From: an uncultured Bacteroidota bacterium
GTDB lineage: Bacteria; Bacteroidota; Bacteroidia; Flavobacteriales; Flavobacteriaceae
DNA length: 64,000 nt
Assembly: GCA_902595555.1 (NCBI GenBank)
Contig: CACJQM010000003.1
Coordinates: forward strand, 62,001-126,000
Reading direction: 5' to 3'
Below are positions 13,320-30,207 of this stretch, piece after piece. The stretch's first letter is position 1. Every line of letters begins with the position of its first letter. The translations under genes were made by a program, and so were the position numbers. The notes below the pieces were generated by a model. The model did no database searches. It saw only the letters and a program-made list of their open reading frames with translations, and was not told where the DNA came from.

Positions 13320-14570
13320 ATGAGCTATATATTTACTTCTGAATCTGTAAGTGAAGGTCATCCAGACAAGGTAGCTGATCAAATAAGTGATGCACTGATA
13401 GATAATTTTCTTGCTTTTGATAAAAATTCAAAAGTTGCCTGTGAAACATTAGTTACTACTGGTCAGGTTATTCTTGCTGGTGAAGTCAAGTCAAAAGCAA
13501 GTCTTGATGTTCAACAAATTGCAAGAAATATAATTAATAAAATTGGATATAATAAAAGCGAGTACATGTTTGATGGAAACTCTTGTGGAGTTTTATCAGC
13601 CATTCATGAACAATCACCAGATATTAATCAAGGTGTTGATAAAAAAAATCCTGAAGAACAAGGTGCTGGGGATCAAGGTATGATGTTTGGTTATGCATGT
13701 AATGAAACAGAAAATTATATCCCTTTACCACTGGACTTATCTCATAAATTATTAATTGAACTTTCAGAATTAAGGAGGGAACATAAAGAAATCAAATACT
13801 TAAGACCTGATTCAAAATCTCAAGTTACATTTGAATATTCAGATGATAATAAACCTGTTAAAATTCTATCAATTGTTATTTCTACTCAGCATGATGATTT
13901 TGATAATGATAATAAAATGTTAGAAAAAATAAAGTCTGATATGATAAATATTTTAATTCCAAGAGTTTTAAATAAATACCCAAGATTAAAAGATTTTTTT
14001 AACAAAGACATAGAATATCATATAAATCCAACTGGTAAATTTATAATTGGTGGACCACATGGCGATACAGGTTTAACTGGAAGAAAAATAATAGTCGATA
14101 CATATGGCGGAAAGGGAGCTCATGGAGGTGGAGCATTTTCAGGAAAAGATCCAAGTAAAGTGGACAGAAGTGCTGCTTATGCAACAAGACATATTGCTAA
14201 GAATTTAGTAGCTGCGGGTGTTGCAGATCAATGTTTAGTTCAAGTTAGTTATGCCATAGGTATTTCAAAACCAATGGGAATATACGTTAATACATACGGC
14301 TCTTCAAAAGTTAATTTAAGTGATGATCAGATAGCATCTTTGGTCGAGGATATTTTTGATATGCGACCATATTTTATTGAAAAAAGACTAAAATTAAGAA
14401 ATCCAATTTATACTGAAACTGCAGCGTATGGTCATATGGGCAGAGAAAATAAGTTAGTAACTAAAACTTTTTTATCATCTAATGGTGAAACTAAAAAATT
14501 AGAAGTTGAACTTTTTACGTGGGAAAAATTAGACTTCGTCAATATAATAAAGAAAAAATTAAAGATTTAA
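13320..14570 (+). CDS. metK: S-adenosylmethionine synthase
   Basis: Cytoplasmic enzyme making S-adenosylmethionine from methionine and ATP. The 416 residues match MetK length. Signature motifs include [14 protein letters not shown] near the N-terminus, [12 protein letters not shown] at about 117-128 and the glycine-rich [20 protein letters not shown] at about 264-283. The gene starts 86 bases after the regulator and ends 2 bases before ahcY, forming a SAM-use/SAH-recycling pair. No SAM riboswitch structure was recognised in the leader. Its place inside a polysaccharide run is unusual for a housekeeping gene. Confidence 0.97.
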
Positions 14571-14572
14571 AA

Positions 14573-15874
14573 ATGAAATATATACAATATAAAGTTAAAG
14601 ATATTTCTCTTGCCGATTGGGGAAGAAAAGAAGTTAATCTAGCAGAAGCAGAAATGCCAGGATTAATGTCTTTAAGGAAAGAATTTAAAGGAAAGAAACC
14701 ATTGAAAGGCGCTAGGATAGCAGGATGCCTTCATATGACAATTCAAACTGCAGTTTTAATCGAAACTTTAGTTGAACTTGGCGCTGAAGTTACTTGGAGT
14801 TCTTGCAATATTTTTTCAACTCAGGACCACGCAGCTGCTGCAATTGCAAAAGCAGGAATTTCAGTATATGCTTGGAAAGGAATGAATGAAGAAGAATTTA
14901 AATGGTGTATAGAAAAAACATTGTTTTTTGGTGAAGAAAAGAAGCCTTTAAATATGATTTTAGATGATGGAGGTGATTTAACAAATATGGTTTTAGATGA
15001 GTATCCTGAACTTGTAAAAAATATAAAGGGACTTTCAGAAGAAACAACCACAGGTGTACATAGACTATATGAAAGAGTAAAAAATGGCAAGCTTCCTCTT
15101 CCTGCCATAAACGTTAATGATTCAGTAACTAAATCCAAATTTGATAATAAATATGGATGCCAGGAAAGTGCAGTTGATGCAGTAAGAAGAGCAACTGACA
15201 TCATGTTAGCTGGCAAGAGAGTTGTTGTTGCTGGATATGGTGATGTTGGAAAAGGTACAGTTTCCTCGTTTAGTGGAGCAGGTTCAATAGTTACAGTTGT
15301 TGAAATTGATCCGATATGTGCTTTACAAGCATCTATGGATGGATATGAAGTAAAAAAAATGAAAACAGTTATTTCAAATGCTGATATCATTGTAACAGCA
15401 ACTGGAAATAAAGATATATTAAGAGAAGAACATTTTAGGTTAATGAAAGATAAAGCAATTGTTTGTAATATAGGCCATTTTGATAATGAAATTGACATGG
15501 CTTGGTTGAATAAAAATTATGGATATTCAAAAGTTGAAATCAAGCCACAAGTTGATTTATATGATATTGATGGCAAGCAAGTAATAGTTTTAGCAGAAGG
15601 TAGGCTGGTAAATTTAGGATGTGCAACTGGACATCCAAGTTTTGTTATGAGTAATTCATTCACAAATCAAACATTAGCTCAATTAGAATTGTGGATTAAT
15701 CATAAAAATTATGAAAATAAAGTTTATATGCTACCAAAACATCTTGATGAAAAAGTAGCCAAATTACATCTCGAAAAATTGGGTGTAGAACTTGAAAATC
15801 TTTCGCATGATCAAGCAAAATATATTGGTGTTAAAGTTGAGGGACCTTATAAACCTGAATATTACAGATATTAA
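14573..15874 (+). CDS. ahcY: S-adenosylhomocysteine hydrolase (adenosylhomocysteinase)
   Basis: Hydrolyses S-adenosylhomocysteine to adenosine and homocysteine, clearing the inhibitor of SAM-dependent methyltransferases. ATG at 14573 was chosen: it lies 2 bases after the metK stop and precedes the conserved '[19 protein letters not shown]'. The longer frame back to 14519 would overlap metK. The NAD site [12 protein letters not shown] is at about residues 220-231. The substrate lysine region reads [13 protein letters not shown], and the C-terminus ends in [10 protein letters not shown] as in the family. 433 residues is normal length. Confidence 0.97.
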
Positions 15875-15938
15875 AATTATTATAAGCTCTAAAATTTTAT
15901 AACTAAAAATATTTTAAAATGAGAAATTTTTATTAATT

Positions 15939-17138
15939 ATGAAAAGGGTTGCTATAATTGGTGGTGGTATATTAGGATTAGCTATAGGTTATAAACTTAC
16001 TAGTAAAAAAAATAAATATAAGGTTGAAATCCTAGAAAAAGAAAATAAACTGGGTAAACACCAATCTGGTAATAATAGTGGTGTTTTACACTGCGGACTT
16101 TATTATGAACCTGGATCACTTAAAGCTAAGCTTGCAGTTGAAGGAATTAGAGAGATGGTTCAATTCTCACAAAATTACGGAGTGAGTCATGATATATGTG
16201 GTAAAATAGTTGTTGCTACGAATAATTATGAGGAAAAATTTCTTCAAAATTTAGCCAATAGAGGAAAAAAAAATGGACTTAAAGGTTTAAAATTTTTATC
16301 AAAAAAAGAACTTTCTTTGAGGGAACCAAACGTAATAGCAACTAAAGCTTTATTGGTTCCTGAAGAAGGAATTATTGATTACAACCATGTTGTTAATGAA
16401 TTATCTAAACGTATTAATTCAAGAGATGGTGAAATAGTTTTAGCATGTGAGGTTTTATCGTCAAAAAAATTAAATGACAATCAGGTTACTTTAATTACTA
16501 ATAAATTTGAAAAAAATTATGATTTGGTTATTAGTTGCTCAGGTCTATACAGTGATAGAGTCTTTAGTAAATTAATTCATAAAAAAAGCCCACTTCAAAT
16601 CATACCTTTTAGGGGTGAATATATGCATGTTAAAAAAGAATATATGGATATTGTAAATCACTTAGTTTATCCTGTACCAGACCCAAAATTTCCTTTTTTA
16701 GGCATTCATTTTACTCGATTAATTAATGGTGGCAGAGAGGTTGGACCAAATGCAGTTTTAGCATTAAAAAGAGAAGGTTACAGCAATAAAGATTTTTCAT
16801 TAAATGATACGATTGAAATCTTAAAATATAAAGGTCTACGAAATTTCATATTGAAAAATTTTGGTTTTACAATTAATGAATTTGTTAGTTCATTTTCCAC
16901 CAAAGCATTTATTAAAAAAGCAAAAAAATTAATTCCTAGTTCTGAAAGATTTATGTTCGAGAAAGGTGGTACATCTGGAGTTAGAGCACAAGCAATTTCT
17001 AAAAATGGTGAATTATTGATGGACTTTAAAATTGTAAGAGAAGATAATCAAATACATATCTTAAATGCGCCATCACCTGGTGCAACAGCATCATTATCTA
17101 TAGCTAAATATATAATTTCAAAATACATCACTAATTAG
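15939..17138 (+). CDS. lhgO: L-2-hydroxyglutarate oxidase
   Basis: FAD-dependent oxidase/dehydrogenase converting L-2-hydroxyglutarate to 2-oxoglutarate, usually membrane-associated. The 399-residue protein opens with the dinucleotide-binding motif VAIIGGGILGLAIGYKL. It then has the family-specific QSGNNSGVLHCGLYYEPGS (about 44-62), and closes with the FAD-binding NAPSPGATASLSIAKYI. Its presence in a sugar-nucleotide locus makes sense if a neighbouring dehydrogenase recycles NADH with 2-oxoglutarate and releases L-2-hydroxyglutarate. The Cj1427-like protein at 22613 is such a candidate. Confidence 0.88.
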   Translation: MKRVAIIGGGILGLAIGYKLTSKKNKYKVEILEKENKLGKHQSGNNSGVLHCGLYYEPGSLKAKLAVEGIREMVQFSQNYGVSHDICGKIVVATNNYEEKFLQNLANRGKKNGLKGLKFLSKKELSLREPNVIATKALLVPEEGIIDYNHVVNELSKRINSRDGEIVLACEVLSSKKLNDNQVTLITNKFEKNYDLVISCSGLYSDRVFSKLIHKKSPLQIIPFRGEYMHVKKEYMDIVNHLVYPVPDPKFPFLGIHFTRLINGGREVGPNAVLALKREGYSNKDFSLNDTIEILKYKGLRNFILKNFGFTINEFVSSFSTKAFIKKAKKLIPSSERFMFEKGGTSGVRAQAISKNGELLMDFKIVREDNQIHILNAPSPGATASLSIAKYIISKYITN

Positions 17139-17156
17139 ATCAAATAAAAAAGGATT

Positions 17157-17708
17157 GTGAATAATAATTTTAAAATTGATAAAAGTTGGAATATATTTTT
17201 AGATCGTGATGGTGTAATTAATAAAAAATTAAAAGATAATTACGTAAAAAATTGGAGTGAATTTGAATTTATTAAAGGATCCCTAGATGCAATTTCAACT
17301 TTATCAAATATTTTTAATAAGATAATTATTGTCACTAATCAGAGAGGTATTGGAAGAGGATTAATGAGTGATAATGATTTGTTTTTAATTCATAAAAAAA
17401 TGATTAATGTTATCGACAAAAATCAAGGAAGAATTGATGGAATATATTATTGTTCAGATATATCTGATAGCTCTAAATTTAGAAAACCCAATACAGGTAT
17501 GGGTATAAAGGCAAAAAATGATTTCCCATCAATAGATTTTAAAACCTCTATTATGATTGGAGATTCATTGAGTGATATGATTTTTGGTAAATCATTAGGT
17601 ATGAAATGCTTTATGATTAATAATATTATGATTAATGAAAATATTGACATGAAATTTAAATCACTTTATGAATGCTCAAACTTTTTGGAAAATAACTTTA
17701 AATATTAA
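17157..17708 (+). CDS. gmhB: HAD-family heptose 1,7-bisphosphate phosphatase-like protein
   Basis: HAD-superfamily phosphatase in the histidinol-phosphate/GmhB group, expected to remove the C7 phosphate from D-glycero-D-manno-heptose 1,7-bisphosphate. HAD motif I is FLDRDGVIN at about 16-24 with the Asp nucleophile, motif II is VTNQRGIGRG, and motif IV is MIGDSLSDM near 136. The zinc-binding Cys loop of typical GmhB (CxH...CxC before RKP) is missing: only one Cys remains before FRKPNTGM. It has a GTG start with an AAGGA-like ribosome site. gmhA, hddA and hddC nearby support the role. Confidence 0.77.
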   Translation: MNNNFKIDKSWNIFLDRDGVINKKLKDNYVKNWSEFEFIKGSLDAISTLSNIFNKIIIVTNQRGIGRGLMSDNDLFLIHKKMINVIDKNQGRIDGIYYCSDISDSSKFRKPNTGMGIKAKNDFPSIDFKTSIMIGDSLSDMIFGKSLGMKCFMINNIMINENIDMKFKSLYECSNFLENNFKY

Positions 17709-17726
17709 TATCAAAAAAATTATTTT

Positions 17727-19034
17727 ATGAAAATTATAGTTGTAGGTACAGGATATGTTGGTTTGGTTACTGGTACTTGTTTTTCTGAGACTGGAAATGA
17801 AGTCACTTGTGTAGATATAGATAAATCCAAAGTAGATAAATTAAATTCAGGACAAATTACAATTTATGAGCCTGGCTTGGAAAAAATTTTTTTAAGGAAT
17901 ATTAAAGAAGGTAGATTAAAATTCACAACAAAATTAGAAGAGGTTATTGAAGATTCCCAAATTATATTTTTAGCATTACCTACCCCGCCAGGTGAGGATG
18001 GAAGTGCAGATTTAAAATATGTATTAAATGTTGCTGATAAATTAGGTAAAATATTAAAAGACTATAAGGTTATAGTTAATAAAAGTACAGTACCAGTTGG
18101 TACTGCTGATAAGGTTAAAAAGATTATTGAGATAAACTATAAAGGAAAATTTGATGTCGTAAGCAATCCTGAATTTCTGCGAGAAGGTGTAGCAGTAGAT
18201 GACTTTATGAAACCTGATAGGATTGTTGTAGGAACAAAATCCGAAAAAGCGAAAAAATTAATAAGTCAATTATATGCTCCATTTGTTAGGCAAGGTAATC
18301 CTGTAATTTTTATGGACGCTCATAGTTCAGAATTAACTAAGTACGCAGCAAATAGTTTTTTGGCAACTAAGATCTCTTTTATGAATGAGATTTCTCAATT
18401 ATGTGAACGTATGGGAGCTAATGTTGATGATGTAAGGAGAGGAATTGGAACAGATGAAAGAATAGGAAAAAGATTTTTATTTCCAGGGATAGGATATGGA
18501 GGATCTTGTTTCCCTAAAGATGTTAAAGCATTAATTAATTCATCTGAAAAAATAAATTATGATTTTAAAATATTAAAATCTGTTGAAAAAGTAAATTCTA
18601 ATCAAAAATTAGAATTAATTAATAAAATTAATTCCTATTACAACAATGATTTAAAGGGTAAACATTTTGGATTGTGGGGGTTAGCCTTTAAACCTAATAC
18701 GGATGATATAAGAGAAGCACCAGCTTTAAATATAATCGATGAACTTATAAAAAGAGGAGTATCATTAAATGTCTATGATCCTGAAGCTATGGCAAATGTT
18801 AAAGATTTAGTAGGAGACAAAATCAAATATTCTAATAATCAATATGATGCTATAAAAAACGTTGATGCATTAATTATTGCTACTGAATGGAATGAATTTA
18901 GAACACCAAATTTCGATCTTATGAAAACATTGTTTAAAAACAAAGTTATTTTTGATGGTAGAAATTTATATCAAATAGAAAAGATGAAAGAATTAGGGTA
19001 TCATTATGAATCTATTGGAAGACCAATCCATTAA
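17727..19034 (+). CDS. ugd: UDP-glucose 6-dehydrogenase
   Basis: Oxidises UDP-glucose to UDP-glucuronate with two NAD. The 435-residue protein has the N-terminal NAD-binding motif VVGTGYVGLVTGTCFSETG. The catalytic cysteine is at about residue 261 in YGGSCFPKDV, and the C-terminal domain contains LWGLAFKPNTDDIREAPAL, diagnostic of the UDP-glucose branch rather than the HexNAc branch. The next gene decarboxylates its product, so the pair makes UDP-GlcA and UDP-Xyl. Confidence 0.94.
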   Translation: MKIIVVGTGYVGLVTGTCFSETGNEVTCVDIDKSKVDKLNSGQITIYEPGLEKIFLRNIKEGRLKFTTKLEEVIEDSQIIFLALPTPPGEDGSADLKYVLNVADKLGKILKDYKVIVNKSTVPVGTADKVKKIIEINYKGKFDVVSNPEFLREGVAVDDFMKPDRIVVGTKSEKAKKLISQLYAPFVRQGNPVIFMDAHSSELTKYAANSFLATKISFMNEISQLCERMGANVDDVRRGIGTDERIGKRFLFPGIGYGGSCFPKDVKALINSSEKINYDFKILKSVEKVNSNQKLELINKINSYYNNDLKGKHFGLWGLAFKPNTDDIREAPALNIIDELIKRGVSLNVYDPEAMANVKDLVGDKIKYSNNQYDAIKNVDALIIATEWNEFRTPNFDLMKTLFKNKVIFDGRNLYQIEKMKELGYHYESIGRPIH

Positions 19035-19054
19035 ATTATATAAATAAATTATAA

Positions 19055-20038
19055 ATGAATCAAAAAAGAGTTTTAATTACTGGAGCAGCTGGTTTTTTAG
19101 GCTCACATTTATGTGACCGCTATATAAAAGAGGGTTATTATGTAATTGGTATGGATAATTTTATTACCGGTAATCCTAAGAATATTAAACATCTTGAAAA
19201 TAACACAAACTTTCAATTTATTAAACATGATGTTACCAATTATATTAAAATAAAAGGCTCAGTGGATTATATTCTTCATTTTGCATCACCTGCAAGCCCT
19301 ATAGATTACCTTAAAATACCTATACAAACTTTAAAGGTAGGAGCACTAGGTACTCATAACTGTTTAGGATTAGCAAAAGCTAAAGGAGCAAGAATATTAG
19401 TTGCAAGTACCAGTGAGGTATATGGAGATCCACAAGTACATCCTCAAAATGAGGAATACTGGGGTAATGTTAATCCAGTCGGACCTAGGAGTGTTTATGA
19501 TGAAGCAAAGCGATTTATGGAGAGTATAACTATGGCTTATAATACATTTCACAATGTTGAAACAAGAATTATAAGAATTTTTAATACTTATGGACCAAGA
19601 ATGCGTCTGAATGACGGAAGAGCATTACCAGCATTTATTGGTCAAATATTAAGAGGTGAGGATATAACTGTTTTTGGAGATGGTTTACAGACAAGAAGTT
19701 TTTGTTATGTTGATGATTTAGTTGAGGGAATTTATCGCTTACTCCTCTGTGACTATAATCAACCAATTAATATTGGAAATCCAAATGAAATAAGTTTGGT
19801 AGAATTTGCAGAAGAAGTGATAAGATTAACTGGTTCAAATGCTAAAATTATTTATAAAAAATTACCTCAGGATGATCCAAAGAAAAGAAGACCTGATATT
19901 ACTAAAGCCAGAAGTATTTTAAAGTGGAAACCTAAAATTAATAGACAAACTGGTTTAAAAATAACTTATGAATATTTCAAGTCATTACCACCAACTGAGT
20001 GGTCAAGAAAACCTAAAGAATTTACTTCAAAAAAATAA
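19055..20038 (+). CDS. uxs: UDP-glucuronate decarboxylase (UDP-xylose synthase)
   Basis: Short-chain dehydrogenase-type enzyme converting UDP-glucuronate to UDP-xylose. It has the NAD motif [13 protein letters not shown] at residues 6-18 and the UXS-specific [16 protein letters not shown] (about 75-90). The serine/tyrosine/lysine site is split over STSEVYG and YDEAKRF (about 120-155), and [20 protein letters not shown] is nearly invariant in this family. 327 residues is normal for the soluble bacterial form. It lies 20 bases after ugd. Confidence 0.94.
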
Positions 20039-20040
20039 TT

Positions 20041-20613
20041 ATGAAGGATGAAATAAAACAAATAATTAAAGAATCTATTGAGATTAAGAATAAAATAATT
20101 TTAGATGATTTAATTCTTAATAATATATCTAAATCAATTGACCTAATTACAAATGCACTAAATAATAGAAAAAAAATACTCTTTTGTGGTAATGGAGGTT
20201 CTGCAGCAGATGCTCAACATTTAGCTGCAGAGTTTTCAGGACGTTTTTACAAAGATAGAAAAGCGCTACCTGCGGAAGCATTACATTGTAATACATCTTA
20301 TCTTACAGCAGTAGGAAATGATTATGGTTTTGAATTTATTTACTCAAGATTAATTGAGGGGATAGGAAATCCAGGTGATGTATTAGTTGGAATTAGTACA
20401 TCAGGTAACTCAAAAAATATTATCAATGCTTTTAGTATCGCAAAAGAAAAACAATTAAAAGTAATTGCTTTAACTGGAGAAACAGGTGGAGATATGAAGA
20501 ATGAGTCTGACATTTTAATTAATGTTCCATCCAATGATACGCCTAGAATTCAAGAATTACATATTTTAATTGGACATATAATTTGTCAAAAGGTGGAGAC
20601 TAATATTTTTTGA
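20041..20613 (+). CDS. gmhA: D-sedoheptulose 7-phosphate isomerase
   Basis: First step of heptose synthesis: sedoheptulose 7-phosphate to D-glycero-D-manno-heptose 7-phosphate. The SIS-domain motifs FCGNGGSAADAQHLAAEFSG (about 55-74), GISTSGNSKNI (about 119-129) and TPRIQELHILIGHIIC near the C-terminus, with its zinc/catalytic Glu and His, fit GmhA. 190 residues is normal. It lies 2 bases after uxs and 9 before hddC, so it is co-transcribed with the heptose nucleotidyltransferase. Confidence 0.93.
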   Translation: MKDEIKQIIKESIEIKNKIILDDLILNNISKSIDLITNALNNRKKILFCGNGGSAADAQHLAAEFSGRFYKDRKALPAEALHCNTSYLTAVGNDYGFEFIYSRLIEGIGNPGDVLVGISTSGNSKNIINAFSIAKEKQLKVIALTGETGGDMKNESDILINVPSNDTPRIQELHILIGHIICQKVETNIF

Positions 20614-20622
20614 TTTTTGTAA

Positions 20623-21315
20623 ATGAAAAAAGAAGCTATAATACTTGCTGGTGGTTTTGGAACAAGGCTAAAGGAAACAGTACCAAGTCTACCTAAATGT
20701 CTTGCTCCAGTCAAGGGAAAACCACTATTAAGTTATATAATAAATTATTTGATAGATAATAAAATTAATAAGATAATTTTTTCGTTGCATTACAAAAGTG
20801 AAATGGTAATTGAATATGTAAAAAGTAATTTTAATTTTATTAATTATGAATTTGTAATTGAGAAAGGTCCACTGGGAACTGGAGGTGCTATAGCTTTAGC
20901 ATTAGAAAAAACAAATACAGATAATATAGTTGTATTGAATGGGGATTCTATTTTTAAAATTGAGCTTGACAGCTTTTACGAGTTTCACAGCGATATGAAT
21001 TCAAGCTTTTCAATTGCATTAAAAAAAATGTCTGACCCTTACAGATATGGAACAGTAAATACAAATAAGGAATGTAAAATAATTTGCTTTAATGAAAAAA
21101 ATGAATCTCTTAAAGATGGGATAATAAATGGAGGTATTTACATAGTTAATAAGACTATTTTTTTAAAAGAAATAATATCTCCATCCTTTTCTCTTGAAAA
21201 TGATTATTTAGCAATAAGTACGGAGAAAAAAAACATATATGGAAAAACTTTTGATGATTATTTCATTGATATAGGTATTCCAGATGATTATAAAAGAGCA
21301 AATATTGAATTATAA
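20623..21315 (+). CDS. hddC: D-glycero-D-manno-heptose 1-phosphate guanylyltransferase
   Basis: Nucleotidyltransferase making GDP-D-glycero-D-manno-heptose from the 1-phosphate and GTP. The pyrophosphorylase signature AIILAGGFGTRLKETVPSLP is at residues 5-24. LPKCLAPVKGKPLL, the LNGDSIF metal-binding Asp near 108 and the C-terminal YFIDIGIPDDYKRA all fit HddC rather than the hexose enzymes. 230 residues matches the family. Partners gmhA directly upstream and hddA at 23571 support the assignment. Confidence 0.88.
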   Translation: MKKEAIILAGGFGTRLKETVPSLPKCLAPVKGKPLLSYIINYLIDNKINKIIFSLHYKSEMVIEYVKSNFNFINYEFVIEKGPLGTGGAIALALEKTNTDNIVVLNGDSIFKIELDSFYEFHSDMNSSFSIALKKMSDPYRYGTVNTNKECKIICFNEKNESLKDGIINGGIYIVNKTIFLKEIISPSFSLENDYLAISTEKKNIYGKTFDDYFIDIGIPDDYKRANIEL

Positions 21316-21327
21316 CAATTAAAATTC

Positions 21328-22593
<1,266 letters not shown>

Positions 22594-22612
22594 ATATAAA
22601 AAATAGATATAA

Positions 22613-23551
22613 ATGAAAAAAGTATTAATAACAGGGGGAGCGGGATATTTAGGCTCAACTCTTTCGGATCATTTACTAACAAATGGTTATAAAGTAACAG
22701 TATTAGATAATTTAATGTATAATCAAATTTCTTTGCTACACCTTTTCAAAAAAAATGGTTTTAAATTCATTCAGGGTGATGTTAGAGATAGCGAAAATCT
22801 TAAGAAAATTGTTAAAAACCATGATATCATAATACCACTAGCTGCAATAGTAGGTATGCCTGCCTGTGAAGCAAACCCAGAATTAACAGTTGCTGTAAAC
22901 TTTAATCAAGTTGAATCTATTCTAGAGGTTTTAAATGATAATCAAAAATTAATATTACCAAATACCAATTCTCAGTATGGATCATCAGATTCTATTATCA
23001 CTGAGGAATCGCCATTTAACCCTCTTTCATTATATGCAAAAACTAAATGCGATGCTGAGGATGCAATGTTGTCAAATGGTAATGGAGTTTCATTAAGATT
23101 GGCTACAGTTTTTGGTGTTTCCCCAAGAATGAGAACAGATTTGCTTGTAAATGACTTTGTTTATAAAAGTATAGTTGATGGTTATTTAGTTTTATTCGAA
23201 GCACATTTTAAAAGAAATTATATTCATGTTCAAGATATAGCAAGAACTTTTCAATTTATAATTGAAAATTATGACTCTTGTAAAGGCCAAGCCTTTAACG
23301 TAGGATTATCAAGTGCAAATTTGAGTAAATTAGAGTTAGCTGAAAAAATAAAATCTCATATTCCTGCTTTAGTAATAAAAGAAGACAATTTTAAAGAAGA
23401 TTTTGATAAAAGAAACTATATTGTTTCAAATGAAAAATTAGAGTCTTTAGGATGGTCTCCTGAATTTGATTTGGATTATGGGATTAAACAACTTGTTTCT
23501 GCTTATAAGTTAATTATTAATAAGAATAATGAAACGTTTACAAACTTATAA
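22613..23551 (+). CDS. Cj1427-like GDP-heptose 4-dehydrogenase (SDR family)
   Basis: SDR-fold enzyme with NAD motif LITGGAGYLGSTL and active-site YAKTK (about 144-148). Several segments match what I recall of Campylobacter jejuni Cj1427: HDIIIPLAAIVGMPACEANP, NTNSQYGSSD, RLATVFGVSPRMRTDLLVND, HFKRNYIHVQDIA, NVGLSSANLSKLELAE and DFDKRNYIVSN. Cj1427 oxidises C4 of GDP-D-glycero-D-manno-heptose and regenerates its tightly bound NAD with 2-oxoglutarate. The gene sits directly before the heptose kinase hddA. The heptose substrate is inferred; a UDP-HexNAcA 4-epimerase is the alternative. Confidence 0.78.
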   Translation: MKKVLITGGAGYLGSTLSDHLLTNGYKVTVLDNLMYNQISLLHLFKKNGFKFIQGDVRDSENLKKIVKNHDIIIPLAAIVGMPACEANPELTVAVNFNQVESILEVLNDNQKLILPNTNSQYGSSDSIITEESPFNPLSLYAKTKCDAEDAMLSNGNGVSLRLATVFGVSPRMRTDLLVNDFVYKSIVDGYLVLFEAHFKRNYIHVQDIARTFQFIIENYDSCKGQAFNVGLSSANLSKLELAEKIKSHIPALVIKEDNFKEDFDKRNYIVSNEKLESLGWSPEFDLDYGIKQLVSAYKLIINKNNETFTNL

Positions 23552-23570
23552 TAATATAAATTTAAACTAA

Positions 23571-24551
23571 ATGGTAATTTCAAAAACACCTATCAGAATA
23601 AGTTTCTTTGGTGGAGGAACAGATTATCCAGATTATTTTAAAAAATACGGAGGAGCTGTTTTATCATCTACAATTAATAAATATATTTATGTTTCAGTAA
23701 AAAGGCTTGAAGTTTCCTCTGAGTTTAAATATAAAATTTATTATTCTAAGTTAGAATTATGTAATAAAATTGAAGAAATTGAACATCCAGTAATTAGAGC
23801 TTGTATAACTTTCTTGAAAATTAATGATCCACTAGAAATACATGTTATTGCAGATTTACCTGCAAGATCAGGAACAGGTTCATCATCATCTTTCACTGTT
23901 GGTCTTTTAAACTCATTTTATAGTTTTAAAGGTCAAATCATTTCTAAAGAAAGATTAGCAATTGAAGCGATTCATATTGAGCAAGTTGTTTTAAATGAAA
24001 GAGTTGGGGTTCAAGACCAATTAGCAGCAGCTCATGGCAGTTTAAACTTATTTCAGATGAGTAAAAAATCCACATTTAAAGTTTGTAAAATCAATATAAA
24101 TTCTCGTAGAAAAAAAGAGCTTGAAGGAAATTTATTAATGTTTTACACAGGCGTAAAAAGATATGCGCATAAAATTTTAAAAGAACAAATTTCAAATACT
24201 AAACAAGATAAAATCAGTTCAGACTTAAATAGAATAAAGGAAATGGTAATTAAAGGAAATGAAATTTTATCAAGTAATGTCTCACTTGATAATTTTGGTT
24301 TGTTGTTAGATGATGCCTGGGAGACAAAAAAAAAATTATCAAAAGCTATTTCATCTACTTTTTTAAATGATATATATACAAGAGCAAAAGATTATGGAGC
24401 AATAGGAGGTAAATTATTAGGTGCAGGTGGTGGTGGATTTTTTATTTTTTACGTAAATAAAGAATTTCAGTCAGAAGTTAGAAAAGGTCTTTCAGATTTA
24501 GTAGAGATTGACTTTAATTTTGAAAATGATGGAAGTAAAATAATTAATTAA
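23571..24551 (+). CDS. hddA: D-glycero-D-manno-heptose 7-phosphate kinase
   Basis: GHMP-family kinase that phosphorylates heptose 7-phosphate at C1. The N-terminal SKTPIRISFFGGGTDYPDYF is the HddA form of the substrate motif. The ATP-binding loop LPARSGTGSSSSFTVGLL is at about 97-114, and the C-terminal GGKLLGAGGGGFFIFY closes the fold. 326 residues is normal. With GmhA, GmhB-like and HddC it completes the four-step route from sedoheptulose 7-phosphate to GDP-D-glycero-D-manno-heptose. Confidence 0.92.
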   Translation: MVISKTPIRISFFGGGTDYPDYFKKYGGAVLSSTINKYIYVSVKRLEVSSEFKYKIYYSKLELCNKIEEIEHPVIRACITFLKINDPLEIHVIADLPARSGTGSSSSFTVGLLNSFYSFKGQIISKERLAIEAIHIEQVVLNERVGVQDQLAAAHGSLNLFQMSKKSTFKVCKININSRRKKELEGNLLMFYTGVKRYAHKILKEQISNTKQDKISSDLNRIKEMVIKGNEILSSNVSLDNFGLLLDDAWETKKKLSKAISSTFLNDIYTRAKDYGAIGGKLLGAGGGGFFIFYVNKEFQSEVRKGLSDLVEIDFNFENDGSKIIN

Positions 24552-24578
24552 AAAAATAAATATTTAAAACTATTTGTA

Positions 24579-25529
24579 ATGATAAAATTAGAAAATAAAA
24601 AATTTTTAGTAACTGGTGGAACTGGCTTTTTTGGAAAAAACTTTGTAAAATATGTTGAAGAAAGAGGTGGTATTGTTGATTATTTTGGTTCTGAATATGA
24701 TTTATCAGATGAAAATAAAGCAATTAAAGCTTTTAAAAAATTTAATTTAAAATATGATTACATAATACATGCAGCTGTATTGCAAGGTGCTGGAGATTGG
24801 CCATTGTTTCACAAAGCAGAACAATTTGATATAAATTGTAGAATTCACTCAAACACTTTAAAATGTTGGAAGAAATATCAGCCACAAGCAAAATTTATTG
24901 GTCTTGGTAGCTCCTGTTCTTATCCCGGATCCATAGTTGAATTGAGTGAAGATGATTATTGGAACGGGAGGATGCATGAATCAGTTGATGTATATGGCTT
25001 AACAAAAAAAGTGATGAATACAGGTATCGAAGCGTATAAAGATCAATATAATTTAAAGGGAACTACTGTTGTATTTGCAACTCTTTATGGCCCTCATGAT
25101 TCATTTGATAGAGAAAAATCTCATGTAGTTTCAGCTCTTGTTAGAAAATTTGTTGAAGGTAAAAATAATAATTCAGATGAGGTTGAAGTTTGGGGAGATG
25201 GTACTCAAACAAGAGAGTTGATATACATAGATGATCAAATTAAAGGTCTTTTAACTGTCATTGATTATGATGGTGAATTGATAAATATTGGTACAGGAGT
25301 TACAGTTACAATTAAGGATTTAGCTGAGACTATAAAGGAAATATGTAACTACAAGGGCAAAATTTTTTACAACATTAACAGATTTGTTGGTGTAAAACAT
25401 AAAGTGTTAAATGTAGAGATGGCCAGAATGAAATATGGATGGACTGATTCTATTAAAGTAGATTCATTAAGAAACAATTTAATTAAAACTATAGATTGGT
25501 TTGATAACAATAAACACTTAATTGATTAA
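24579..25529 (+). CDS. GDP-fucose-synthase-like epimerase/reductase, probably acting on a GDP-4-keto-heptose
   Basis: SDR enzyme resembling GDP-L-fucose synthase (GMER/WcaG). It has NAD motif FLVTGGTGFFGKNF, active-site YGLTK and GDGTQTRELIYIDD. Both residues used by GMER as epimerase acid/base are present: Cys in LGSSCSYP and His in HVVSALVRKF. It could therefore do 3,5-epimerisation plus C4 reduction. No GDP-mannose 4,6-dehydratase lies in the window. The adjacent hddA and Cj1427-like dehydrogenase point to a 4-keto-heptose substrate instead, as in the Campylobacter heptose pathways. Confidence 0.8.
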   Translation: MIKLENKKFLVTGGTGFFGKNFVKYVEERGGIVDYFGSEYDLSDENKAIKAFKKFNLKYDYIIHAAVLQGAGDWPLFHKAEQFDINCRIHSNTLKCWKKYQPQAKFIGLGSSCSYPGSIVELSEDDYWNGRMHESVDVYGLTKKVMNTGIEAYKDQYNLKGTTVVFATLYGPHDSFDREKSHVVSALVRKFVEGKNNNSDEVEVWGDGTQTRELIYIDDQIKGLLTVIDYDGELINIGTGVTVTIKDLAETIKEICNYKGKIFYNINRFVGVKHKVLNVEMARMKYGWTDSIKVDSLRNNLIKTIDWFDNNKHLID

Positions 25530-25571
25530 GTTAAATATATCTTTTTATAAAATTTCTTACATAAGTTTTTA

Positions 25572-26846
25572 ATGCATATAAAAAAAGCTTTAGAATTTAA
25601 ATTTTTAAAAAACCCACTATTAAGAGAATTTATTCCTCAAATAACTATTTTAGTTATTGCTAGAGGACTAAGCCTTGTAAACTCTGTAAAGGCAATAACC
25701 ACTTTAGGGTCCTATAATATTGGTTATACTAATCTCTTACAAACAGCTGCAGCTCAATCATCTGTCCTATATGATGGTGGAATGAATAATATTGGAATTA
25801 GAATGTATAGTGAATCTAATTCTCCAAACTTAGATTATTTACTTCGAATTCTTAGTTTTAGACTTTTAATAATAACTGTTTTTTCAGTTTTTTGGATATT
25901 TACAATTTTACTGTTAAAATTTAAGCATTATGAACTTTGGATTATAACATTTTTAATTATTGTGAATAATGCACTAGATCTGGCTTACATTTTTAGATGT
26001 TTAGGTAAGTATACTACATATATGGTAATTTCGGCAATTAATCCAATTTTGCTTTTTTGCTTATATTTTACATTACTTGAGTCTAATAATTACCTAGGAA
26101 TTGATTTAAAATTAATTATAATATCAACCTCTGTAACATTAATAATTTCATGGCTTTATTTTTATTTTACAGTTGGAATATTTCCATTAAAATTTTTTAA
26201 AATTAATGATTATCATGAATTGTTTAATGAATCAAAATTAATGTGGGCTAACTCTGCTGTTGGTATATTTTATCCAGCTCTTCAAATTTATTTAATTACT
26301 TTGATGTTAGGTATTGAACAGAATGGTATTTACAGAGCAAGTATTTTATTTGTAATCCCCATTGAGATGATAATGACAACATTTATCGGCATTGTTTTAC
26401 CTCATACTAGTAAGTGGAAAACTAATGGAATTAGATTTTTTAAAATGAAAGTTAAACAAACATCATTTTATTTATTATTACTATTTAGTCCCATACTTCT
26501 TTTAGTTTATTTTGCCAATGAAAATATTTTTTTAAAATTACTTGGTGAGGATTATGTTTTTTCTTTGATAGCATTTAAAATACTGGTTTTTGGAAAAATT
26601 TTTCTTATGATTTTTTCTGTTTTTTCATCAAGTATTATAGCAAATAGACATGACAATTTTTTGTTAAAATCCGTTATTTTTATAGCAATTTTTAATGTAA
26701 TATTAAACGTAATTTTAATACCTCGATTTGAATTAATGGGTGCAGCTCTAGCAACAATGTTAACAGATATATTATTGCCAATTTTTTTATTTTACAAATT
26801 TATGACAATAAAAGAGGTACAATTTTTTAAACAATCTAATGATTAA
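25572..26846 (+). CDS. Wzx-type polysaccharide flippase (second)
   Basis: Integral membrane protein of 424 residues with about 12 hydrophobic helices, in the MOP flippase superfamily. After a short cytoplasmic N-terminus, the first helices read FIPQITILVIARGLSLVNS, and the C-terminal half ends in paired helices (NVILNVILIPRFELMGAALA) typical of Wzx. It sits among nucleotide-sugar genes rather than beside the other flippase at 3502. A candidate terminator follows it directly, so it may close a transcription unit. Confidence 0.83.
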   Translation: MHIKKALEFKFLKNPLLREFIPQITILVIARGLSLVNSVKAITTLGSYNIGYTNLLQTAAAQSSVLYDGGMNNIGIRMYSESNSPNLDYLLRILSFRLLIITVFSVFWIFTILLLKFKHYELWIITFLIIVNNALDLAYIFRCLGKYTTYMVISAINPILLFCLYFTLLESNNYLGIDLKLIIISTSVTLIISWLYFYFTVGIFPLKFFKINDYHELFNESKLMWANSAVGIFYPALQIYLITLMLGIEQNGIYRASILFVIPIEMIMTTFIGIVLPHTSKWKTNGIRFFKMKVKQTSFYLLLLFSPILLLVYFANENIFLKLLGEDYVFSLIAFKILVFGKIFLMIFSVFSSSIIANRHDNFLLKSVIFIAIFNVILNVILIPRFELMGAALATMLTDILLPIFLFYKFMTIKEVQFFKQSND

Positions 26847-26849
26847 ATT

Positions 26850-26882
26850 AAAATGCTTTACTTTAGTTAAGGTGAAGCTTTT
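26850..26882 (+). terminator. Candidate intrinsic terminator hairpin
   Basis: A stem-loop at 26855-26878 has ten base pairs, two of them G-T. GCTTTACTTT pairs with AAGGTGAAGC around a four-base AGTT loop. It begins 8 bases after the flippase stop codon and is followed by only four T residues. The short T tract makes it a weak or partial terminator. It would separate the heptose/uronate block from the CDP-sugar block. Confidence 0.45.
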
Positions 26883-26921
26883 GAAATGATAAAATAATAT
26901 ACTTAAATAAAAAAATTTATT

Positions 26922-27695
26922 ATGAAGGTAATAATTCTTGCAGGTGGATATGGTACTCGCATAAGCGAAGAATCAGTTATTAAACCAAAACCAATGGTTG
27001 AAATTGGAGATAAACCAATATTGTGGCATATAATGAAAATTTTTAGTCATTTTGGATATAACGAATTTGTAATTCTACTAGGATACAAAGGTTATTCCAT
27101 AAAAGAATATTTTTCTAACTATTTTCTTCATCAAAGTGACCTAAAAATTGATTTAGAAAATAATAAATGCACATATACAAATTCAAAGTCTGAGAATTGG
27201 AAGATCGATTTAGTTGATACCGGTTTAGAAACTATGACTGGAGGAAGAATCAGTAGGATTAAAGAATTAATTAATAATGAACCTTTCTTTTTGACATATG
27301 GAGATGGTGTTGCTAATATTGATTTGAATGCGCTATTATCGCAACATAAGCTTTCTAAAAAATCTGTTACTATGACAGCTGTTATGCCTGAGGGTAGATT
27401 TGGAGCATTAAATATTTCACCAAATAATACAATCACAAATTTTATGGAAAAACCAAAAGGTGATGGTTCTTGGATTAATGGTGGATTTTTTGTTTGTGAA
27501 AAGGATATTTTCAATTATTTATCTAATAATGATGACGAAATTTTTGAAAGAGAGCCCCTAGAAAAATTAGCAAATGATGGAAAATTAGGAGCTTATAAGC
27601 ACACTGGATTTTGGAAATGTATGGATACTATGAGAGATAAAAATCTTTTAAATGAATTGTGGGATAATGATGATGCAGATTGGAAAATTTGGTAA
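26922..27695 (+). CDS. rfbF: Glucose-1-phosphate cytidylyltransferase
   Basis: Makes CDP-glucose from glucose 1-phosphate and CTP, the entry to CDP-6-deoxy sugars. The 257-residue protein shows the cytidylyltransferase signature ILAGGYGTRISEESVIKPKP, the GDKPILWHIMK segment, VDTGLETMTGGRI, TYGDGVANID (metal site) and the C-terminal HTGFWKCMDTMRDKNLL, all characteristic of RfbF/DdhA. It is followed after 12 bases by its pathway partner, CDP-glucose 4,6-dehydratase. Confidence 0.95.
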   Translation: MKVIILAGGYGTRISEESVIKPKPMVEIGDKPILWHIMKIFSHFGYNEFVILLGYKGYSIKEYFSNYFLHQSDLKIDLENNKCTYTNSKSENWKIDLVDTGLETMTGGRISRIKELINNEPFFLTYGDGVANIDLNALLSQHKLSKKSVTMTAVMPEGRFGALNISPNNTITNFMEKPKGDGSWINGGFFVCEKDIFNYLSNNDDEIFEREPLEKLANDGKLGAYKHTGFWKCMDTMRDKNLLNELWDNDDADWKIW

Positions 27696-27707
27696 AAACT
27701 TTTTAGA

Positions 27708-28832
27708 ATGTTTAATAATATATATAATAATAAAAAAATAATAATAACTGGAAATACTGGTTTTAAAGGAGCTTGGTTGACTACTTGGTTATTAAAATTA
27801 GGAGCTAATGTTTATGGTCTTTCAAAAGATATTCCAACAAAACCCTCTCTCTATGAAGCACTTAAACTAGATTCTAAAATACAACATACTTTTGGAGATA
27901 TACGTGACTATGAAGTTGTAAATAAGCTTTTTAGTGATGTTAAGCCAGATTTTATATTTCATCTTGCTGCGCAGCCCATTGTATCATCATCCTTTGATGA
28001 TCCAATTGAAACTTTTGAAACTAATGTTATAGGCTCTGTTAATGTATTACAAGCATTTAAAAAATTAAATTATAGATCCAATCTAATTTTTATAACAAGT
28101 GATAAATGTTATGAAAATGTTGAATGGACTTTTGGATATAGAGAGATTGATAGGCTAGGCGGTAAAGATCCATACAGTGCCTCAAAAGCGGGTGCAGAAT
28201 TAGCTTTTTCATCATTTTTCAGATCATTTATAAATCATGATAAAAATAAAAAAGCTGTTTCAGCAAGAGCAGGAAATGTAATTGGAGGTGGAGATTGGGC
28301 ATTAAACCGAATAGTCCCTGACGCTATGGTAAGCTGGTCTAATGCTAAAAGTGTTGAAATTAGAAGTCCAAAAGCTACTAGACCATGGCAACATGTGCTT
28401 GAACCAATTAGTGGTTATTTAAGACTAGGACAGTTACTTTACCAAAAAAACAACAGTTTAAATGGTGAGTCTTTTAATTTTGGGCCAGCTTATGATCAAA
28501 ACAAGACAGTTCTAGAGTTATTAAAAAAACTAGGTGACCAGTGGAAATCTTGTAATAACCAATTAAAAACAGATATTTTAATTAATACTCCCAAAGATCT
28601 CTTGGAAGCTAATTTATTGAAATTAAATTGTGATAAAGCTTTACATTATCTCAATTGGAAGCCAGTTCTAAATTTTGAAACTACAATTAAATTTACTGCT
28701 GATTGGTATTATGAGTATTATCACAATGTCAAAAATAAAGAGGGAATGTTTAATTGTACAATTAAACAAATTGAATTATTTGAATCAAAAGCAAAAGAAC
28801 AATTAATTTCATGGACGGAAAACAAGAAATAA
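27708..28832 (+). CDS. rfbG: CDP-glucose 4,6-dehydratase
   Basis: Converts CDP-glucose to CDP-4-keto-6-deoxyglucose. The extended-SDR fold starts with IIITGNTGFKGAWLTTWLLK at about 10-29, the diagnostic RfbG/DdhB opening. HLAAQPIVSSSFDDP and the active-site YSASKAGAE (about 158) follow. AGNVIGGGDWALNRIVPD and RPWQHVLEPISGYL complete the match. 374 residues is typical. It overlaps the epimerase-like gene by 22 bases. Confidence 0.95.
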   Translation: MFNNIYNNKKIIITGNTGFKGAWLTTWLLKLGANVYGLSKDIPTKPSLYEALKLDSKIQHTFGDIRDYEVVNKLFSDVKPDFIFHLAAQPIVSSSFDDPIETFETNVIGSVNVLQAFKKLNYRSNLIFITSDKCYENVEWTFGYREIDRLGGKDPYSASKAGAELAFSSFFRSFINHDKNKKAVSARAGNVIGGGDWALNRIVPDAMVSWSNAKSVEIRSPKATRPWQHVLEPISGYLRLGQLLYQKNNSLNGESFNFGPAYDQNKTVLELLKKLGDQWKSCNNQLKTDILINTPKDLLEANLLKLNCDKALHYLNWKPVLNFETTIKFTADWYYEYYHNVKNKEGMFNCTIKQIELFESKAKEQLISWTENKK

Positions 28833-29272
28833 TTCAGGGACTTGAAATTACTGATTTAAGAGTAATTTCAAATAAAAAAGGTGATATTTATCATGTCTTG
28901 AAATCTTCAGAATCTTCTTATTCCAGTTTTGGAGAAGCATATTTTTCAACTGTTAAAAAAGGAGTTGTTAAGGGATGGAAAAAACATAAAATTATGATAT
29001 CTAATTTAATCGTTCCAATTGGAGAAGTTAGATTAGCCTTTTATGACTGTAGAGTAGACAGTAAAACATTTAAACAGCTCAATATTTTTAATCTTTCAAA
29101 TAAAAATTATAAAAGAATAACTGTTAATCCTGGTATATGGTTTGCTTTTGAGGGAATTGATGATCATAATCTCCTTTTAAATATTTCTAATATTTTACAT
29201 GATCCTAATGAGTCAGAAAATATAGATTTAGAAAATTCATCATTCAATTATTATAAACTTGTAAAAAAGTGA
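28811..29272 (+). CDS. RmlC-like cupin, probable CDP-4-keto-6-deoxyglucose 3,5-epimerase
   Basis: 153-residue cupin in the dTDP-4-dehydrorhamnose 3,5-epimerase family. After the short N-terminal 'IIQGLEITDLRVISNKKGDI', the core shows GEAYFSTVKKGVVKGWKKHK (strand with the substrate-binding Lys/His region), NLIVPIGEVRLAFYDCR and VNPGIWFAFEG. It overlaps rfbG by 22 bases and the reductase by 4. It is therefore expected to epimerise the CDP-4-keto sugar, giving an L- or C3-inverted series. A sugar-nucleotide isomerase of the FdtA type, or action on the 4-keto-heptose, are alternatives. Confidence 0.78.
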   Translation: MDGKQEIIQGLEITDLRVISNKKGDIYHVLKSSESSYSSFGEAYFSTVKKGVVKGWKKHKIMISNLIVPIGEVRLAFYDCRVDSKTFKQLNIFNLSNKNYKRITVNPGIWFAFEGIDDHNLLLNISNILHDPNESENIDLENSSFNYYKLVKK

Positions 29273-30207
29273 AAATATTAATAACTGGTGGTTTTGGTTT
29301 TATTGGAGGAAATTTGATAAAAAAACTTTTTTATAAGAATAAAATAATTATATCAACTAGAAGAAAGAAAATACCTAAATCATTTAATAATTTTAAAAAT
29401 TTAGAGCTGGTTCAACACGAAGATTTATTATCTCAAAAAAAATTTCCAAAAAAAATAGATGTAGTAATTCACTTAGCAAATCTCAATGCAAAAAATTGTA
29501 ATAAATTTCCCTCCGAAGCAATTAATGTAAATATTGATCATTCAAGATTAATATTTCAAAACGCTATAAACAATAATGTTAAACATATTATATACTTTTC
29601 AACATCTCAAGTCTATGGAAATAAACTTCTTGGAGAAATATCAGAAAACTCAATAATTAATCTTGAAAATTTATATTCTCTTACACATAAGGCAGCTGAG
29701 GATGTTCTAAAAGTGTGTTGCACAGATAGCTCAAAAACCATTTATAGCATTCTTCGTTTATCAAACTCATTCGGAGCGCCAATTGATTTAAGGACGGATA
29801 TTTGGGATATTTTTATTAATAACCTATCAAAGGAATGTTCGCTAAATAAATCATTAACTATTAAGTCTAACCCAGAGATATTAAAAGATTTTATTCCAGT
29901 AAGATATGTTGCCGAATGCGTAAGTTTTTTAATTTCTAATGTAAATCAAAATGGTTTGTATAATCTTTCTAGTGAAAGTACTTACACATTATTAGAGATT
30001 GCTAAAAAAATAAAAAATAATTATGAAATTATTAACCCTAAAGTTAAAGTAAAAATTAATTATAGTCATCTAAATTGTGACACTAAAAACCATTTCAAAT
30101 TTTTAAATGGAAACTTAAATAAAATTGGTTTTAAAGTTAAAAAATGTTTAAATGATGAGATAAAAGATTTACTTTATTATTGTGACAATAATTTTAATAG
30201 TAAATAA
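29269..30207 (+). CDS. SDR-family nucleotide-sugar reductase/epimerase
   Basis: 312-residue NAD(P)-binding SDR with a GTG start and a 4-base GTGA overlap on the RmlC-like gene. It has NAD motif ILITGGFGFIGGNL, HLANLNAKNC and FSTSQVYG. The active-site motif reads YSLTH followed by K, so the usual YxxxK lysine is His with Lys one position later. Position suggests it reduces the 4-keto group to complete the CDP-6-deoxyhexose. Which sugar results cannot be told. Confidence 0.75.
   Translation: MKILITGGFGFIGGNLIKKLFYKNKIIISTRRKKIPKSFNNFKNLELVQHEDLLSQKKFPKKIDVVIHLANLNAKNCNKFPSEAINVNIDHSRLIFQNAINNNVKHIIYFSTSQVYGNKLLGEISENSIINLENLYSLTHKAAEDVLKVCCTDSSKTIYSILRLSNSFGAPIDLRTDIWDIFINNLSKECSLNKSLTIKSNPEILKDFIPVRYVAECVSFLISNVNQNGLYNLSSESTYTLLEIAKKIKNNYEIINPKVKVKINYSHLNCDTKNHFKFLNGNLNKIGFKVKKCLNDEIKDLLYYCDNNFNSK

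Follow-up and report, generated by a model that had tools for sequence, protein, structure and literature searches.

A putative 2-oxoglutarate recycling loop formed by an L-2-hydroxyglutarate oxidase and a Cj1427-like dehydrogenase in a flavobacterial polysaccharide locus

The window analysed here is a stretch of 64,000 nucleotides from an uncultured member of the Flavobacteriaceae (assembly GCA_902595555.1, contig CACJQM010000003.1, positions 62,001 to 126,000), and forms part of a 1.4-Mb genome of 15 contigs that is 83% complete. Within a polysaccharide locus of this window, the L-2-hydroxyglutarate oxidase gene lhgO (15939-17138) shares a gene run with a short-chain dehydrogenase/reductase (SDR) gene (22613-23551) resembling Cj1427 of Campylobacter jejuni. 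As judged from sequence comparison, the SDR probably oxidises GDP-heptose at C4 with 2-oxoglutarate as co-substrate, and LhgO probably recycles that co-substrate. A loop of this kind had been proposed in a first-pass annotation of the same DNA, and it is supported by the genomic tests of SDR identity and lhgO association, with LhgO as an optional partner. The evidence comprises the identities and order of the genes, an association tested against a control gene, and the occurrence of the pairing on several branches of the LhgO tree.

The first-pass annotation had called the SDR Cj1427-like. An open reading frame of 312 amino acids on the plus strand occupies 22613-23551, and its best PDB match is 6vo6/6vo8 (343.5 bits, residues 2-301), which we take to be Cj1427; the PDB title reads 'putative sugar-nucleotide epimerase/dehydratease'. 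The next PDB sequence reaches 82.7 bits, and this gap rules out a chance resemblance. Identity to 6vo6 amounts to 164 of about 302 aligned columns (54%), and among the 25 best NCBIfam matches listed no model was near its cut-off. The alternative of a UDP-sugar 4-epimerase (GalE, WbpP or TviC) was rejected, with galE at 96.5 bits (cut-off 262.3) and TviC at 39.9 bits (cut-off 760). In sequence, the SDR is nearer to Cj1427 than to any 4-epimerase by a wide margin, and nearer too than to dehydratases or decarboxylases, and the identification held. The chemistry on which the annotation had drawn is also present in the available passages of PMC10680097, where Cj1427, a ping-pong C4-dehydrogenase, carries tightly bound NADH on isolation, and 2-oxoglutarate oxidises this cofactor, yielding L-2-hydroxyglutarate. 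From the 54% identity we infer the same substrate, the same use of 2-oxoglutarate and the same L-stereochemistry for the window SDR.

The frame at 15939-17138 (plus strand, 399 amino acids, FAD type) matches NF008726, 'L-2-hydroxyglutarate oxidase', over residues 3-393 with 460.8 bits against a cut-off of 299, which confirms the earlier assignment as lhgO. Its best PDB match is 8w75 (FI05204p, 266.9 bits), presumably the Drosophila enzyme. The motifs NSGV.H.G.YY, PF.G.Y, YPV and PFLG.H.T, invariant over 11 aligned LhgOs, are all kept. No convincing fusion of LhgO with the SDR was found among the 6 of 143 LhgO frames longer than 430 amino acids, and the extensions of these frames look like start-calling artefacts.

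The polysaccharide locus takes up most of the stretch between position 53 and about 52.5 kb, and contains SLBB/Poly_export, Wzx-like and O-antigen-ligase-like genes, several glycosyltransferases, CDP-glucose genes, Polysacc_synt_2 and a bacterial sugar transferase. Inside it, metK-ahcY (13320-15874, plus strand, both over their cut-offs) is followed after 64 bp by a run on the same strand in the order lhgO, gmhB-like, ugd, uxs-like, gmhA, hddC-like, TviB-type, Cj1427-like SDR, hddA-like and fcl-like SDR. The gaps from lhgO through the fcl-like gene are 2-27 bp, that between lhgO and the gmhB-like gene being 18 bp. Four members of the run, all on the plus strand, are candidates for heptose supply: gmhA, sedoheptulose-7-phosphate isomerase (20041-20613; TIGR00441 214.9 bits, cut-off 209.45); a gmhB-like heptose-bisphosphate phosphatase of HAD-IIIA type (17157-17708; PRK08942 130.9 bits under a cut-off of 178, TIGR01656 over its cut-off); an hddC-like heptose-1-phosphate guanylyltransferase (20623-21315; NF049965 207.3 bits, cut-off 300); and an hddA-like heptose-7-phosphate kinase of the GHMP type (23571-24551; NF049969 138.5 bits, cut-off 600). 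The best PDB relatives of the last two are 6jq8, a 'putative 6-deoxy-D-mannoheptose pathway protein', and 3k85, D-glycero-D-manno-heptose kinase. The fcl-like SDR, similar to GDP-fucose synthase (24579-25529, plus strand; NF047922 153.8 bits, cut-off 500), has 1bws, GDP-4-keto-6-deoxy-D-mannose epimerase/reductase, as its best PDB relative and is a candidate C4-reductase in the role of Cj1428. The closeness of the SDR to Cj1427, together with the heptose and GDP-sugar matches of its neighbours, supports the recycling loop.

In the proposed pathway, the products of gmhA, hddA, gmhB and hddC would make GDP-activated heptose, and the SDR would oxidise it at C4 using its own bound NAD+. The resulting bound NADH would be discharged onto 2-oxoglutarate, giving L-2-hydroxyglutarate, while the 4-keto sugar, perhaps after epimerisation, would be reduced with altered stereochemistry by the fcl-like enzyme. 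LhgO would then return L-2-hydroxyglutarate to 2-oxoglutarate and hand its electrons on to the quinone pool, in the manner of the Escherichia coli enzyme. Through this metabolic coupling of SDR and LhgO, which is likewise inferred, 2-oxoglutarate would act as a catalytic electron shuttle linking sugar oxidation and respiration, L-2-hydroxyglutarate would not accumulate, and the loop would pull the unfavourable oxidation of the alcohol towards product.

A genomic association between lhgO and Cj1427-type genes had also been predicted, and it was found in a phylum sample of 395 Bacteroidota genomes. These were searched with lhgO (E 1e-40), with the SDR of locus L201 as query for the SDR superfamily (E 1e-40) and with a WbpB-type query from L202 (E 1e-50), giving 152, 37 and 58 genomes with a match, respectively; since the SDR query was taken from a locus already adjoining lhgO, its subfamily is favoured. 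lhgO was present in 30 of the 37 SDR genomes compared to 122 of the 358 others (Fisher p 4e-8). Distances were counted from 151 lhgO places in 143 of the 152 genomes, the place on G100:C16 being derived from a separate search. Among 31 SDR matches in genomes with a placed lhgO, 7 lay within 100 bp of it, 9 within 10 kb and 11 within 20 kb. With the uxs-like gene of the window as control query (UXS, 111 matches), none lay within 100 bp and one, the window itself, within 10 kb and 20 kb, so that the contrast at 100 bp (7/31 versus 0/111) has a p of about 1e-5. The pairing of lhgO with the SDR superfamily is more than chance.

Each of the seven adjacent cases (G181, G121, G114, G227, G274, G100 and G344, from families f18, f24 and f36) has lhgO directly upstream of the SDR gene on the same strand, with 22-90 bp between the matches. 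A DegT aminotransferase gene follows 3' of the SDR in G181 and G114, and DegT, neuB and neuC follow in G100; the SDR of G121 is cut off by the contig end. The SDR of G181 (L201) also has 6vo6 as its best PDB match (196 versus 115 bits), and the two of the seven that were aligned, from G114 and G100, show 36 and 37% identity to the window SDR. A further SDR (33%) adjoins lhgO in G225 (L259) but stands outside the proximity count because it missed the 1e-40 limit. Weak matches in L266 (WbpB, 27%) and L278 (SDR, 27%) were left uncounted.

It may be asked whether LhgO is instead a general glycan-locus gene that serves several dehydrogenases producing 2-hydroxyglutarate, those of WbpB/WlbA type as much as those of Cj1427 type. 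The order wbpA-lhgO-wbpE-wbpB in G012, G095, G210 and G308, lhgO with wbpE-wbpD-wbpB in G026 and with wbpA and wbpB in G432, and the presence of lhgO in 35 of 58 WbpB genomes versus 117 of 337 others (p 4e-4) speak for such a role, as does the formation of 2-hydroxyglutarate by WbpB in Pseudomonas aeruginosa (available part of PMC8651671). However, none of 38 WbpB matches lay within 100 bp of lhgO, and the six within 10 kb, which are also the six within 20 kb, come from five genomes, four of them of one genus. The two gene types do not differ significantly in proximity to lhgO at 10 kb (p 0.24) and differ at 100 bp (p 0.002). Moreover, what WbpB makes in P. aeruginosa is the D-isomer, and LhgO is named for a different substrate; also, two congeners of the window genome with WbpB-like genes (30-33%) have no lhgO in the stretch. 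The window genome itself has no WbpB-type match at 1e-50, and the recycler in its run is LhgO; D2HGDH was not searched for. The co-occurrence expected for both gene types thus stood for the Cj1427 type and was weaker, with no adjacent case, for the WbpB type, and a general role of this breadth is judged unlikely.

A second alternative is that LhgO is an ordinary central-metabolism gene merely placed next to metK-ahcY on the border of the glycan locus, where it would repair L-2-hydroxyglutarate from promiscuous malate or lactate dehydrogenases or serve CsiD-dependent breakdown of glutarate and lysine. The window lhgO does lie directly 3' of ahcY, and an old ahcY-lhgO neighbourhood may exist, as 29 of 100 Bacteroidota lhgO loci that had not been chosen for an SDR have ahcY at a distance of 0.7-5.7 kb; these 100 rank high in the lhgO match list and are not a random draw. 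The genus argues otherwise. lhgO was found in none of its 22 other genomes (55-87% complete) and in none of 14 further genomes of the family, and among the phylum-sample matches listed only the window genome and G296 carry it in this family. ahcY is present in 13 congeners, the copy in G412 being divergent (58%, partial) and probably on a foreign contig. At 12 congeneric metK-ahcY loci fetched with their flanks (L359-L370), lhgO is absent from every stretch, which led to its rejection as an ancestral neighbour of metK-ahcY. Different glycan genes stand 3' of ahcY at 9 of these 12 loci, and a homologue of the window gene at 57565-58947 occurs in that place at 3 of them. Therefore, in this genus, metK-ahcY forms the fixed edge of a glycan locus whose contents vary, and the absences from 22 congeners and 12 loci make lhgO the first gene of an exchangeable glycan cassette. 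Cj1427-type SDRs are likewise missing from the 22 congeners, except for one 38% match in G412. In addition, csiD (PF08943) had no match in the window genome at its 83% completeness, with a positive E. coli control. Together with the grouping of the window LhgO described below, these results leave a purely central-metabolic role quite improbable.

Beside the G412 match, contig G412:C51 (L371), which was binned with a congener, carries a divergent metK-ahcY (51-52%), an FAD oxidoreductase and the 38% SDR. As a candidate LhgO-like protein, this oxidoreductase was rejected at 192 bits, under the LhgO cut-off of 299.

Two trees were built by a 'quick' method; for the first, one ahcY- or wcaJ-linked row in every three was kept. 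In both, the window LhgO clusters with those of L201, L203, L204 and L202 (5 rows, SH-aLRT 100). This cluster lies inside a 16-row group (SH-aLRT 96 and 99) that consists only of 6 glycan-locus and 10 phage-contig copies and excludes all others, the ahcY-linked ones among them. L371 was included in the first tree. The second omits the long branches L371, L078, L062, L205 and L333, and its Solidesulfovibrio row is also a very long branch. The Thiosymbion LhgO and that of Solidesulfovibrio represent a second, distant lineage. A single clade of all 15 SDR-paired rows, named for testing after the first tree had been inspected, was rejected (p-AU 7e-5), a result in which long branches play a part. 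Since the SDR-paired LhgOs are not one clade, the pairing is likely to have had more than a single origin. The second lineage also bears on the idea that some LhgO-like proteins have changed substrate and oxidise a glycan intermediate, either a sugar or a hydroxy acid: the Solidesulfovibrio and Thiosymbion proteins are 60% identical to each other and about 37% or less to others among their best 12 matches. For the window protein, with its 461 bits against the LhgO model and its invariant motifs, such a change is very doubtful.

Outside Bacteroidota, the best 80 Cj1427-like loci (47-64% identity, many phyla, some near-duplicates) include 6 with lhgO, where about 0.14 would be expected by a rough estimate from the Bacteroidota lhgO density (about 161 copies, 3.7 Mb per genome) over 1.27 Mb. 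The six are L013 and L016 (Chlamydiota), L062 (a Pacearchaeota bin), L073 (Verrucomicrobiota), L078 (Thiosymbion, Chromatiaceae) and L085 (Gemmataceae, Planctomycetota). lhgO adjoins the SDR in L073, L078 and L085 and is 7 kb off in L062; five of the six exceed the LhgO cut-off, and the L085 copy is cut by the contig end. On plasmid pDMC1 of the sulfate reducer Solidesulfovibrio magneticus RS-1, a kinase, GDP-fucose synthase, DegT, the SDR (52.6%), a nucleotidyltransferase, lhgO and a SIS-domain gene are all on one strand, lhgO being so named by the record's annotation and lying 5.2 kb beyond the preceding genes. Among plasmid records, 173 contain lhgO and 13 the SDR; lhgO was near the SDR in one of six SDR records examined, that of S. 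magneticus, and no Cj1427-type SDR was among the annotated features of five lhgO records (of 60 listed).

A separate feature of these plasmids is a two-gene pair of thiamine pyrophosphate-dependent E1/transketolase type beside the Cj1427-like SDR, seen in Solidesulfovibrio and on three Azospirillum plasmids (L384, L385, L386 and L387), with similar-looking pairs, by eye, in phage loci L158 and L166. These pairs perhaps supply the seven-carbon precursor.

Pairings also occur on contigs classed as viral from the collection they belong to and from matches, for example to dUTPase and dNMP kinase. Of 20 lhgO loci found in IMG/VR, which are not independent since several LhgOs are identical or nearly so, 5 have a Cj1427-like SDR on the contig, some of them near-copies. 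SDRs of 60-63% occur with lhgO on L319, L320, L323 and L330 (the contig of L148), and in L325 a distant SDR (32%) lies 5 bp upstream of lhgO. L315-L317, L321, L324 and L328 begin at a contig end at most 1.3 kb upstream of lhgO, so that their upstream side cannot be judged. The LhgO of L158 had no PHROG match at 1e-6.

Two further observations concern sequences recorded as viral. SDRs from IMG/VR (L092-L125), situated in sugar-nucleotide clusters, are 74-83% identical to the window SDR, compared to 64% for the best bacterial locus found in a scan from which very near genomes may be left out; this closeness is a sign of heptose-gene exchange between phages and bacteria. L313 (ON073792.1, Aphanizomenon phage Yong-DA), which is matched by two more records of equal length, is named as a phage and looks like a plasmid: the part displayed has replication, ParA and ParB genes and polysaccharide genes, among them lhgO and a distant SDR of Cj1427-like type, and lacks structural genes.

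Several results weigh against the recycling loop or narrow its reach. lhgO is missing from the stretch in 74 of the 80 best cross-phylum Cj1427-like loci (only 33 with full flanks) and from 77 of the 80 viral stretches, although L148 has lhgO elsewhere on its contig; since most Cj1427-like loci do without it, LhgO is an optional partner, not a required one. In L013 and L016 the two genes are on opposite strands, and in the window itself they are 5.5 kb apart, not adjacent. Among the candidate supply genes only gmhA exceeds its equivalog cut-off, hddA, hddC and gmhB falling under their NCBIfam cut-offs and the fcl-like SDR likewise under its own. An identity of 54% is no proof that the window SDR uses 2-oxoglutarate. 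The Fisher p-values are too small because the genomes are related, the proximity statistics use one control gene, and the absences of lhgO are limited by the completeness of the window genome (83%) and of its congeners (55-87%). Finally, the 29 ahcY-linked loci have almost no glycan genes, 23 others of the same 100 adjoin wcaJ, and 5 have an SDR (1) or a WbpB-type gene (4); the ahcY- and wcaJ-linked loci indicate that lhgO has other roles.

At the wcaJ-linked loci, lhgO usually adjoins a wcaJ-dpm-GT2 block, and no enzyme producing 2-hydroxyglutarate was seen in the stretch. These loci belong to family f17 where the tree shows it (L213, L214, L218, L221, L229, L233, L235-L238, L243, L245, L247, L249, L250, L252, L255, L257, L258, L261, L263, L279 and L293).

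The remaining genes of the run, all on the plus strand, can be described briefly. The ugd gene, of UDP-glucose 6-dehydrogenase type (17727-19034; TIGR03026 469 bits, cut-off 189.8), and metK-ahcY, the conserved anchor 5' of the variable cassette, are outside the proposed loop. The control gene at 19055-20038, which we take to be a UDP-glucuronate decarboxylase (uxs), has SDR family matches, none over an equivalog cut-off, and genes 51-76% identical to it occur in other genomes. A nucleotide-sugar 6-dehydrogenase of TviB/WbpA type (21328-22593) scores 575.5 bits with NF011729 (cut-off 592) and exceeds the cut-off of TIGR03026. After the heptose run and a flippase, a second sugar-nucleotide set at 26922-30207 comprises CDP-glucose rfbF and rfbG, a weak RmlC-like protein and an SDR; the RmlC-like protein (28811-29272) is a candidate for the C3/C5 epimerase that is otherwise lacking for either sugar. 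A scan of 14400-27000 gave 77 promoters and 4 terminators versus 81 and 3 in shuffles, and G+C of 25-33% across 13-26 kb gave no clear island edge.

Among known systems, the closest is that of C. jejuni, in which Cj1427, with Cj1430 and Cj1428, carries out C4 oxidation, epimerisation and reduction of GDP-heptose. The likeness consists of the 54% identity of the SDR to 6vo6 and of the candidate genes for GDP-heptose supply and for a GDP-fucose-synthase-like reductase beside it. In contrast to that system, the window run includes lhgO, while the words 'lhgO' and 'oxidase' are absent from the text of PMC10680097, the C. jejuni genome not having been searched; also, no clear Cj1430-type epimerase adjoins the window heptose genes, the RmlC-like gene coming after the CDP-glucose genes. 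The principle of a sugar dehydrogenase discharged by 2-oxoglutarate and served by a recycler is already published for the D-isomer. In P. aeruginosa, the sugar-nucleotide dehydrogenase WbpB reduces 2-oxoglutarate to D-2-hydroxyglutarate, which D2HGDH recycles, and the available part of PMC8651671 describes this coupling as aiding lipopolysaccharide precursor synthesis. That system differs in the isomer and in having unrelated enzymes on both sides, and its text is without 'Cj1427' or 'heptose'.

Known lhgO systems differ in another manner. The membrane-bound, quinone-linked LhgO of E. coli (available part of PMC6265302) is of the same family, but there L-2-hydroxyglutarate comes from CsiD in the lysine/glutarate pathway, and csiD was not found in the window genome. 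In Pseudomonas putida W619, an LhgR-controlled lhgO occurs without csiD (PMC8206213), and the available part of this paper, which analyses lhgO neighbourhoods, describes csiD-type clusters and the lhgR-lhgO pair, with 0 occurrences of 'polysaccharide' and 'heptose'. Elsewhere, in the available parts of PMC3234257 and PMC6510165, lhgO appears either in company with csiD or as an entry among tabulated deletions. No description of the L-version, a pair of lhgO and a Cj1427-type gene that recurs in bacteria, on a plasmid and on phage contigs, turned up in searches of openly licensed PubMed Central papers.

The recycling loop would explain the presence of a 'central metabolism' oxidase in loci for surface sugars, and on phage contigs as well, and it points to a likely further bacterial source of L-2-hydroxyglutarate besides CsiD. 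An SDR directly downstream of lhgO may serve as a genome-readable marker for 2-oxoglutarate-dependent sugar dehydrogenases, and the redox coupling can be tested with purified proteins and perhaps also in the named organism S. magneticus RS-1. A wider reading, to which we give slightly less than an even chance, is that the 2-oxoglutarate-discharged SDR and LhgO form a portable redox module recruited several times independently by bacterial, plasmid and phage glycan loci, and that the whole Cj1427-like superfamily, including the lhgO-SDR-DegT cassettes, is 2-oxoglutarate-dependent. If this is true, the 2-oxoglutarate/L-2-hydroxyglutarate couple would be a local shuttle coupling sugar oxidation to the respiratory chain, and the lhgO-SDR-DegT cassettes would make 4-amino sugars that retain the 6-hydroxyl.

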